Positions 34,302-37,300 of a stretch of 64,000 nucleotides of DNA are shown piece by piece. The position numbers were made by a program, and so were the translations under genes. Position 1 is the first letter of the stretch; each line of letters opens with the position of its first letter. The notes under the pieces were generated by a model that saw only the letters and a list, made by a program, of their open reading frames with translations, searched no databases and was not told the origin of the DNA. Origin of the DNA: Lota lota (lineage: Eukaryota > Chordata > Actinopteri > Gadiformes > Lotidae); NCBI GenBank assembly GCA_026745465.1, contig JACYXH010000826.1, forward strand, positions 202,501-266,500, read 5' to 3'.

Positions 34302-37300
34302 CTGCAGTGCAAGGAGTAAGTTATTCAGTCGTTTCTTCCGCAATTCTCGGCGGCAAACTTCGTCGTCTTCTTCTTCCTGGGTTTTGTCTTCCTCTCCCGT
34401 TTCCTCTCTTCTATTCTGGGGTTTGGTTAGCTGTGGGGGGCAAAGAAATTACCAAAAATGTCAAACAAATTCACACACCCCTCGTTTTTTCATCCAGGAA
34501 TGTTTCCTGCTTAACGGAAAATAGTTCCATTTTTTGTTTCCATTGAGAGAAAAATGTGCACGTCAAATTGATGGGAATGTAGCTGTGTGTGTGCGTGTGT
34601 GCGTGTGTGTGCTTACACGAGGGTAGGCAGTGAGAGAGCTGGAGGTGTCTAGCGTCCTGCTCTGGGGGTCTCTGCTGATGACCCTCTCGGCCGACCCAAG
34701 TGGCTCATCTGTGGGTTCAGGAAGGGACTAAACGTAAGTTAAGACGGTTCGGAGCCTCAAGAAGAAATGCAGGCAGCGATGGACTCTTGTGTGTTTATTC
34801 ACAGCTCGTTAACATTTCTCTCCATGATCACTCTGGCGACTGTTTGAAACTGCCGTGTGGTTCTGCTGGTAACCGTGAAGTGGGATTCGTGCCGAGTTCA
34901 TGGACACCGGCGGTGGCTGACAGAAATGGGGGAAACATTTCTGCCGCCAGGATTTCTGAGGTTGGAAAAGCACTTGGTCTGTAGCTCTGAGTATGATACA
35001 CAGAGACAAGCCGAGAGACCGGGATGAGGATAACAGGAGGCGAACTGAACTCCCCGCCACCACACACACACACACACACAGACCAGAACACACACACCAA
35101 ACAAACACCCAAAGTGCAGTCAAACTGAAGGAATGTGTACACAATTCAGCCACATACATGTCATGCATACACAGACGCCTACAGGAACAAAAACTAACAC
35201 ACACACTTGCTTCATGGACCTGACTGGATGTTGCTGTCGTCCCCACTGCAGGGGCGGTGTGCGGCGTCGCTCTCCGCCCTCTGCCTCCGCCTCTCCCGCT
35301 CCATCCTCAGGTGGATCTGCTTGTCCCGCACCAGCTCCCAGTTCCTCACCAGGAACACACGCTGCTTCACCACAAAGCTCCTGTAGACACAAGGGCATGA
35401 GCACAGACACACACACACATGCGCACACGCACACACACACACACACACCCACAGGAACATGTAGACATAAACCCACAGGCATACATACACACACATGTTC
35501 CACATTTGTAGTGATGTATTGTAATTCCTTTACAGCAGTAAAACTATTGAAACTGAATAAATAATTGGAAACAGTAAATCATGTGTTATGTAAATGTCTT
35601 GTTCTCTACCTCTCAGTGCTGGTCATGGGCTCCATCTCCAGATGAGGGAAGAGGCCGGCCATGTCCCCAGAGCTCTTCTCCTGGAGGGGGAGAGAAGAGA
35701 GAGAGAGAGAGAGAGAGAGAGAGAGAGAGAGAGAGAGAGAGAGAGAGAGAGAGAGAGAGAGAGAGAGAGAGAGAGAGAGAGAGAGAGAGAGAGAGAGAGA
35801 GAGAGAGAGAGAGAGAGAGAGAGAGAGAGAGAGAGAGAGAGAGAGAGAGAGAGGAGTCATTAAATCAACCATGGAATAAATGTGAGTAAAAGCCAATGAA
35901 AGACAAGCAAATATTTTTTCTCTAACTCACAAGTTCATGGTGAGAGGCTCTTGTTCTCCCCTTCGGCCGGCCTGGGGGCAAGAAACAGAGAAAGGGATTA
36001 TAGGTAGGTACGAATGGAGAGAGCCAAACTGCTAGCTGAGTTAAAGAGCCTTCTGGAAAAGACCAAAAACCTTGTGTGGGACGAACTGAACTGAGCACAA
36101 GGAACCATCAGCTACTCACAGTAGTGCCTCTTCCTCTTCAGCGGCACCGCAGGCTGCCGGTTCAGCTGTGGAAACACACGCGCACAACAACGTCTTCAAC
36201 ACCAACCGGTGGCACCTCGTTCTGCACTCAACAATGTTCCCTAATTGTTGAGATTCATTTTGTTCATTTCACTTTGCGCCCTTCCCCCTCCCCCGCCCCT
36301 GTGGCAACATCGAATAAATTGCTGCAACGTGATTAAGGCGCTGCTATTGGCTGAGTCTGAAAGGCTCCTGTGGTAGTAGTAGTGAAGTCTACCTGGTTGT
36401 GTCTCCAGAGCCACAGCACATCATAGGGCAGCTGGAAATCGATACGCTTTAGCCTCAGGTACTTGCCTACAAGACACAACGGGTGGGCGTATGACGTCGT
36501 TAATCCCCTTATGCTAGGATGGCATGTTACAGAGAGCATCAACAACAACTGTCCAGCAATGGAAGCATGTTTCTTGTACACGCACCAACATGAAGTGGAG
36601 CCGGTAGGAGACTGTACTCGCGCTCTCCCTCTGTATACTCCAAACTGGCTTTGCTGGTCGGGTTAGATTCGGTGGGGGAGCTGGAAAAAACAAAAAAGCC
36701 TACTAAAAATAGATGTAATTTATGCCAGGTTAGGTGTCTTGCACAAGGATGCCTCTGAGTAGACTGCAGACATTGGGGTTCAAAACCTTTCAAACAGCCT
36801 TACCATTAGACTATTGGTCCCCATTCTGACCACACTTGAAAATGTAGGTAAAAAACAATAACTGTAGTTTTTACATTTAGATTAACATTTAATTTGTTTG
36901 ATTTTAAAGTGCAATTTCAGTGTCAAGGTTAATCAACTCACTCTGTAGTTTTGTGATCATCCGAGTAAAGACCGGAACTTAAGAATGTCTTGCTGGGGTA
37001 ACTGTCCACTCTCTTCTCCCATTGGACGGTTGATGTGTGGGGCGACAGCTGTTCTATCTCTGACTGGTCGAAATATTCTGCTGGGTCATCGCTTTCTGGC
37101 TTATCACTGAGACTAAAAGGAAGGAATGAAAAGAGAGGTAGAAAGACAGGGAGGAAAAGGAGAAAAAGAGAGAAAAGGCACTGGCTTAGTACACAGTGCT
37201 GATGAGCCGTGTGTTAATATTAAGTGTTGATCCCTGAGTACAGTTCAACACAACCGCTCACGCGCTTCAGGTGTGTCTCAAGGCATGAACTAATCTCGCA

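Follow-up and report, generated by a model that had tools for sequence, protein, structure and literature searches.

A SET-less ASH1L paralogue of teleost fishes that retains segments resembling the MRG15 and Caf1/RBBP4 docks

The closest described relatives of the gene reported here are ASH1L and fly Ash1, which act together with MRG15 and Caf1 in the AMC complex. MRG15 strongly stimulates ASH1L (PMC5963871, PMC8106495). The FxLP motif bound by MRG15 sits about 40 residues before the AWS domain (PMC5963871), and two prolines of human ASH1L, P2064 and P2067, have been suggested to relay MRG15 binding to the SET domain (PMC8106495). The MRG-binding motif has been refined to FxLP(x)2-3-phi, in which single hydrophobic changes abolish binding; other proteins that bind MRG domains through FxLP are PALB2, MSL1, MRGBP and Pf1, and the partners share one MRG surface, with mutual exclusion suggested (PMC8701324). 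The Caf1-binding motif (CBM) of fly Ash1 occupies residues 1582-1616, N-terminal of the reader domains. Mutants E1591A and R1604A fail to bind Caf1, and five further residues of the motif are conserved (PMC10148413). In the mouse, a knock-in allele, Ash1l deltaSET, removes exons 11-12, which encode AWS-SET sequence, in frame (PMC3820749). A survey of tilapia bromodomain genes (PMC9454494) and one of zebrafish SET genes (PMC2200798) each name one ash1l in the parts of the papers available to us, which fits the findings below because domain surveys would miss a copy without those domains. The titles, abstract openings and passages that we retrieved contained no description of a SET-less fish ASH1L copy.

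Such a copy, here called ash1lb, is present on the minus strand of the window, the 64,000-nucleotide stretch of burbot (Lota lota) DNA that was analysed. The gene was rebuilt from its splice sites and runs from 45,691 to 34,293, a genomic span of 11.4 kb. It comprises 12 coding exons with 2,049 codons; the assembled coding sequence of 6,150 nt has a single, terminal stop, and every intron is GT-AG. The preliminary description of this DNA had placed exons at 36165-36120 and 35971-35931, separated by a 148-bp intron with a phase-1 T/GC junction, in a gene open for about 2,049 codons across the gap. The exons and the junction were correct, the intron has GT-AG ends, and the open frame was borne out by the assembled coding sequence.

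All exons are given here in minus-strand order. The first coding exon, E2 (44987..45691), encodes residues 1-235 and contains a conserved 19-residue block at 45331-45275. The large exon E3 (39921..44061) encodes residues 236-1616, which include conserved blocks of the N-terminus and, at 42630-42607, 42462-42439 and 42105-42082, three AT-hook-like motifs; two more such motifs are in E4 (37674..38088), at 37996-37973 and 37723-37700. E5 (36942..37112) is followed by E6 (36586..36680), where the putative MRG15-binding segment begins. This segment continues through E7 (36393..36466), which carries FQLP at 36437-36426 in the form FxLP(x)2-phi and matches the ASH1L structures 6ine_A and 6ago_A, and ends in E8 (36120..36165) with both prolines kept. 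E8 is the last exon before the missing AWS-SET, and the 148-bp intron at 35972..36119, in which no SET remnant was found, is the site of the lost AWS-SET-post-SET exons. E9 (35931..35971) is the first exon past this gap. E10 (35610..35680) aligns with the MKPMSNRER region of ASH1L and contains the start of the candidate Caf1-binding motif (35614), and E11 (35220..35380) contains its remainder (to 35332) together with GDDSNIQS. The 511-bp intron at 34709..35219 is the site of the lost bromodomain-PHD-BAH exons, none of which was found there. E12 (34617..34708) precedes the last coding exon, E13 (34293..34430), which encodes a 19-residue C-terminal tail (34352-34296) and the stop.

Two further features of this region were observed. 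A CT/AG dinucleotide run of more than 140 bases, at approximately 35852-35697, takes up a large part of the 250-bp intron that separates E9 from E10. Read-through of the E8 donor (36120-36112, minus strand) gives C-E-stop, and a Lampris record, P0042, ends identically; both may reflect an intron-retention isoform with FQLP and without the Caf1 dock.

When compared with solved structures at E<=0.01, ash1lb matched human ASH1L only (6ine_A, E=2.4e-16; 6ago_A, E=3.4e-11). The match to 6ine_A spans residues 1834-1879 and ends where AWS would start, in agreement with the earlier assignment of the pre-gap exon to the part of human ASH1L just before AWS. Crocodile ASH1L (P0207) aligned with ash1lb in five collinear stretches of 32-99 bits each, 240 bits in total. 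Residues 1773-1879 of ash1lb correspond to crocodile residues 2119-2223, and residues 1878-1977 to 2461-2559, leaving a gap of 237 crocodile residues between these two matches and no match further C-terminal. With Gadus ASH1L the first gap was 226 residues. The loss at the 36,120/35,971 junction is therefore approximately 226-237 residues, and not the roughly 280 first proposed. A second block, the bromodomain, PHD and BAH, is missing between 35,220 and 34,708 (GDDSNIQS to the tail); its size, about 500 residues, is an estimate from positions in SET-containing ASH1L. The preliminary description, which named only the AWS-SET-post-SET block, was right about that block and too narrow in scope.

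The ash1lb protein had no Pfam-A match at E<=1. The human FxLP-AWS-SET chain, used in a tblastn search of the 64 kb, matched the FQLP exon and the adjacent exon alone (E=6e-12); no other match was better than E=1.6. The C-terminal parts of two SET-containing fish ASH1L proteins matched the FQLP exon and the VFLVRNW exon, and gave no AWS, SET, bromodomain, PHD or BAH match across the window. Hidden SET exons within the 64 kb are thus ruled out, and the whole methyltransferase centre is gone from this DNA, as had been claimed. At the other end of the protein, a profile made from 46 tails was run against 160 SET-containing proteins; at E<=10 it matched 24 of them, always within 60 residues of the C-terminus. 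Just two of the 160 matched at E<0.01 (best 1.4e-4) and 136 had no match; the reversed profile gave a best E of 24. This similarity is weak but position-specific, and the tail is probably homologous to that of ASH1L. Judged by its collinear N-terminal blocks and pre-AWS segment, ash1lb is a member of the ASH1L family by descent. With AWS, SET and post-SET absent, it cannot be a methyltransferase by ASH1L chemistry.

Residues 850-2049 were used to search for relatives; 414 proteins matched at E<=0.001, and the best 120 of these were examined. One is a Lota lota record (P0001), 99% identical with the same junction and 14 differing alignment columns, which could stem from the same assembly. SET-less relatives were listed from Merluccius, Coryphaenoides and many acanthomorphs (approximately 50-68% identity over the aligned part), and from Aplochiton and Salvelinus (40%, among the matches listed). 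None of the best 120 of 414 has a precomputed Pfam domain, and the crocodile AWS, SET, bromodomain, PHD and BAH gave no BLAST match to them at E<=0.01, an absence that is informative only for the 72 rows (including the window) that span both docks. Counting the window, 75 rows hold the FQLP region, 74 of them among the 120. The remaining 46 of the 120, some of them named isoforms, are shorter, ending earlier or partial, and are uninformative on SET.

Of the 72 SET-less rows, 70 have 64-66 residues from FQLP to VFLxRN, and the remaining two have 90 and 106. The pattern matched 218 of 232 other rows, and there the median distance was 302. The comparison with related teleosts that had been proposed thus gave the same SET-less spacing in many species, and supports the idea that this is a non-catalytic paralogue of ASH1L in which AT-hook-like motifs and the flanks of the lost block persist. 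Two relatives, P0018 and P0019, come from contigs of 6,680 and 7,725 bases that contain 6,081 and 5,901 nt of coding sequence, compared with 11.4 kb of genomic DNA in the burbot. Their label, lgn, we take to denote assembled sequencing reads, and these compact coding contigs suggest that the SET-less junction exists in spliced transcripts. Names were given for 87 of the 120 rows, and 57 of these were labelled histone-lysine N-methyltransferase ASH1L or ASH1L-like. Fish genes named in this way can be SET-less, and the name alone is a poor basis for counting methyltransferases.

Within the Gadiformes, Lota, Merluccius and Coryphaenoides were the only genera with a SET-less copy among the matches listed. 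A Gadus copy was absent from the best 120 of 414, and may have been lost, be unpredicted or lie outside the listed matches. No ostariophysan (zebrafish) SET-less copy was found among the matches listed.

A separate SET-containing ash1l accompanies the SET-less copy in at least 20 named species, as judged by record names, so that the second, full gene anticipated for the burbot was found in other fishes. Examples, with the SET-less record first, are Myripristis murdjan (P0009 and P0251), Paralichthys olivaceus (P0010 and P0254), Lampris incognitus (P0042 and P0257), Oryzias latipes (P0059 and P0298), Menidia menidia (P0034 and P0260) and Knipowitschia caucasica (P0072 and P0303). The SET-containing rows among the matches listed bear AWS, SET, bromodomain, PHD and BAH; the search for them used a length range excluding short proteins. 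An initial SET-directed search gave named rows from tetrapods only, among the matches listed. The nearest SET-containing ash1l to Lota among the matches listed is P0318 of Gadus macrocephalus (Gadiformes). Three mammalian ASH1L records, P0350 (Bos hybrid), P0351 (Tenrec) and P0352 (Sus), have an FQLP-VFLxRN distance of 185 residues and a SET match of 113 bits, and may be isoforms, or predictions in which part of AWS-SET is skipped.

The segments that border the SET deletion were compared with the known docks. FQLP (residues 1853-1856) was present in all 75 rows reaching the region, that is, the window and 74 relatives. In counts over 74 rows, which leave out P0001 because it is nearly identical to the window, the phi residue was V in 73 and I in one, and both flanking prolines were kept in every row. 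In 66 of 75 SET-less rows, FQLP is preceded by His or Asn in place of the Asp. The 18-residue ASH1L equivalent of the CBM was assigned to fly numbering by spacing, and not by alignment with the fly protein. On this basis, burbot ash1lb has six of the seven conserved residues, with Lys changed to Leu, whereas 500 shuffles of the protein reached at most five. The motif was found in 71 of 74 SET-less rows, the exceptions being P0042, which stops at the E8 donor, P0044 and P0058. The R1604 equivalent was R in 71/71 and the E1591 equivalent was E in 69 and D in two; the K1608 equivalent was lost in all 71, with L in 65. The segments flanking the lost SET thus appear to be both known docks of the AMC complex (Ash1-MRG15-Caf1), one of them with a changed residue. 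The changed CBM lysine and the changed Asp before FQLP may lower the affinities of these docks.

Conservation was scored over 69 aligned copies in non-overlapping 25-residue windows. The two best, one of which begins KRTKKPP, scored 0.99 each, followed by the GIGTDNNS block and a 10-residue block at 0.98 each; the FQLP segment was fifth, at 0.975. The 19-residue E2 block overlaps the second most conserved window. In eight matched copies, the mean pairwise identity of the FQLP segment was 0.826 for SET-less proteins versus 0.976 for catalytic ones, and that of the N-terminus was 0.612 versus 0.763. This long N-terminus retains the AT-hook-like motifs and has no recognised domain.

We propose that ash1lb is an enzyme-free AMC scaffold or brake that probably limits catalytic ASH1L, a reading to which we assign a probability of about 0.55. 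After duplication, the SET domain of ash1lb would have decayed, and the AWS-SET-post-SET exons and bromodomain-PHD-BAH exons would then have been lost in frame. The resulting protein would consist of the long N-terminus, docks for MRG15 and Caf1/RBBP4-RBBP7 about 65 residues apart (formerly about 300) and a short tail. It would sit on chromatin via its N-terminus, hold MRG15 and RBBP4/7 without methylating H3K36, and limit or partition the partners left for catalytic ASH1L, with net restraint as the expected effect. Since MRG partners are suggested to be mutually exclusive and MRG15 stimulates ASH1L, an extra dock without a SET domain should compete. A competitor or scaffold had been suggested at the outset, and this idea gains specific support from what was retained on the two flanks, the apparent MRG15 dock and the larger part of one for Caf1/RBBP4. 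It is a more tentative step to regard teleost ash1lb as a dedicated natural AMC antagonist, which would have arisen when an ASH1L duplicate shed all its known folded domains and retained its N-terminus and partner docks, with the H3K36me2 set by ASH1L tuned by the ratio of the paralogues.

Alternatively, ASH1Lb might be a positive scaffold, bringing MRG15, RBBP4/7 and their complexes to its own sites and activating or repressing independently of ASH1L, without competing. The N-terminal blocks, which score 0.98-0.99 in the four top windows, are no less conserved than the docks, and a function of the N-terminus therefore seems to be selected too. Ash1 is also reported to recruit Mrg15 to common targets (PMC5696344), as a positive scaffold would. 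Such a scaffold would need the same docks as a competitor, and the present data do not separate the two; we consider it a real possibility, though clearly the lesser one. A further alternative is that the gene is kept for its N-terminal half alone, the docks being relics yet to decay. The greater variability of the FQLP segment than in the catalytic copy, the CBM lysine gone in 71/71 and the FQLP region missing from 46 of the 120 listed rows, some of them named isoforms, are in line with decay. However, FQLP is intact in all 75 rows that extend to it, whereas the N-terminus averages 0.61 pairwise identity in the eight copies, and in 71 of 74 rows both docks outlasted the sequence between them. 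We therefore regard relic docks as unlikely, and prefer the enzyme-free scaffold or brake.

The order of losses assumed for this scaffold is suggested by three clupeiform copies (Clupea P0333, Alosa P0346 and Coilia P0334), which are 2,366-2,385 residues long and have FQLP. Their SET matches are weak, 144-162 bits compared with approximately 275, as are their bromodomain matches, 121-129 compared with approximately 190. PHD and BAH gave no match in the three copies, and AWS gave none in Coilia. NHSC is changed to QHSC, QHSS or QHST, and ELTYDYNF to ELT(L/V)NY; of the post-SET cysteines, all three copies lack the middle one (CKCG to CKY or CKK). In SET domains, this Asn and the first of the two tyrosines in YDY are important residues. 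A change of the His beside the NHSC Asn is reported to abolish ASH1L activity in vitro (PMC3820749).

A tree was made from 43 selected rows over 1,624 columns, all of them N-terminal of AWS, with the root imposed on tetrapods and with no gar, bowfin, shark or invertebrate row. The 11 SET-less copies formed a single clade (100/100). Another clade (100/100) held 17 catalytic clupeocephalan copies, including those of Denticeps, salmonids and Gadus, and excluded the SET-less copies; some of its species also hold a SET-less copy. The SET-containing copies of Megalops, osteoglossids and mormyrids grouped with the catalytic clade less firmly (89/88). SET-less and clupeiform copies were joined at 95/94, which is good but not certain, and the tool warned of long branches meeting. 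In quick trees that omitted either of these groups the other still fell outside the catalytic clade, its position relative to Megalops, osteoglossids and mormyrids not being settled. We conclude that the duplication is older than the clupeocephalan copies. As copies with a damaged SET group with those that have none, catalytic activity was probably lost before the domain itself. In the same tree P0301, named Lepidogalaxias salamandroides, unexpectedly grouped tightly with Gadus ASH1L on an end branch of 0.02, possibly owing to a mix-up of sample or label.

The gene ash1lb is most likely an ohnolog from the teleost genome duplication. It has beside it a clear match to a GBA-type glycosyl hydrolase 30 (GH30) at 57101-57580 (plus strand), and a borderline RUN-domain match at 27360-28250 (plus strand; 22.2 bits, cut-off 22), which is RUSC1-like by position. 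ASH1L, RUSC1 and GBA1 are neighbours at human 1q22, and the resemblance supports a teleost-duplication origin. The imposed tetrapod root and the lack of gar, shark and invertebrate rows leave room in the tree for an origin in the early vertebrate duplications, but this is improbable given the 1q22-like neighbours and zero tetrapods among the named rows of the best 120 of 414 matches. An artefact of assembly or annotation, or a pseudogene of one species, for which the 57 of 87 methyltransferase names could be read as a missed SET, is rejected by independent relatives with the same dock-to-dock distance (70/72 rows, many species), by at least 20 species holding both copies, by intact reading frames of about 2,000 codons and by the lack of any SET trace in 64 kb.

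In many euteleosts, ash1lb can be seen as evolution's own separation-of-function experiment, in which the N-terminal half and the two candidate docks were kept as a gene of their own and the enzyme was discarded. A knockout in medaka or another teleost would ask what the N-terminus and the MRG15 and Caf1 docks do without methylation.

Compared with known systems, ash1lb is closest to ASH1L/Ash1 of the AMC complex, with which it has collinear homology over the N-terminus and the candidate docks for MRG15 and Caf1 and, to a weak degree, over the C-terminal tail. ASH1L/Ash1 has AWS, SET, post-SET, bromodomain, PHD and BAH, whereas ash1lb has none of these. The mouse Ash1l deltaSET allele, as far as its published description was available to us, resembles ash1lb in that AWS-SET sequence is removed in frame and the remaining protein is left. 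It differs in being laboratory-made, with a short deletion within AWS-SET and no loss of bromodomain-PHD-BAH, whereas ash1lb is natural and occupies a separate locus beside an intact copy. PALB2, MSL1, MRGBP and Pf1 share FxLP(x)2-3-phi with ash1lb, which would be expected to use the same MRG surface; they are unrelated proteins, whereas the ash1lb motif is the ASH1L version with its flanks. Pseudoenzymes are non-catalytic enzyme paralogues in which catalysis is lost and interaction parts are kept. This is the stage that the three clupeiform copies seem to have reached, whereas in euteleost ash1lb the dead domain itself has gone and linear motifs remain. The family is thus the known ASH1L family, and what is new is a conserved, domain-stripped paralogue that is ASH1L by descent and possibly an AMC scaffold.
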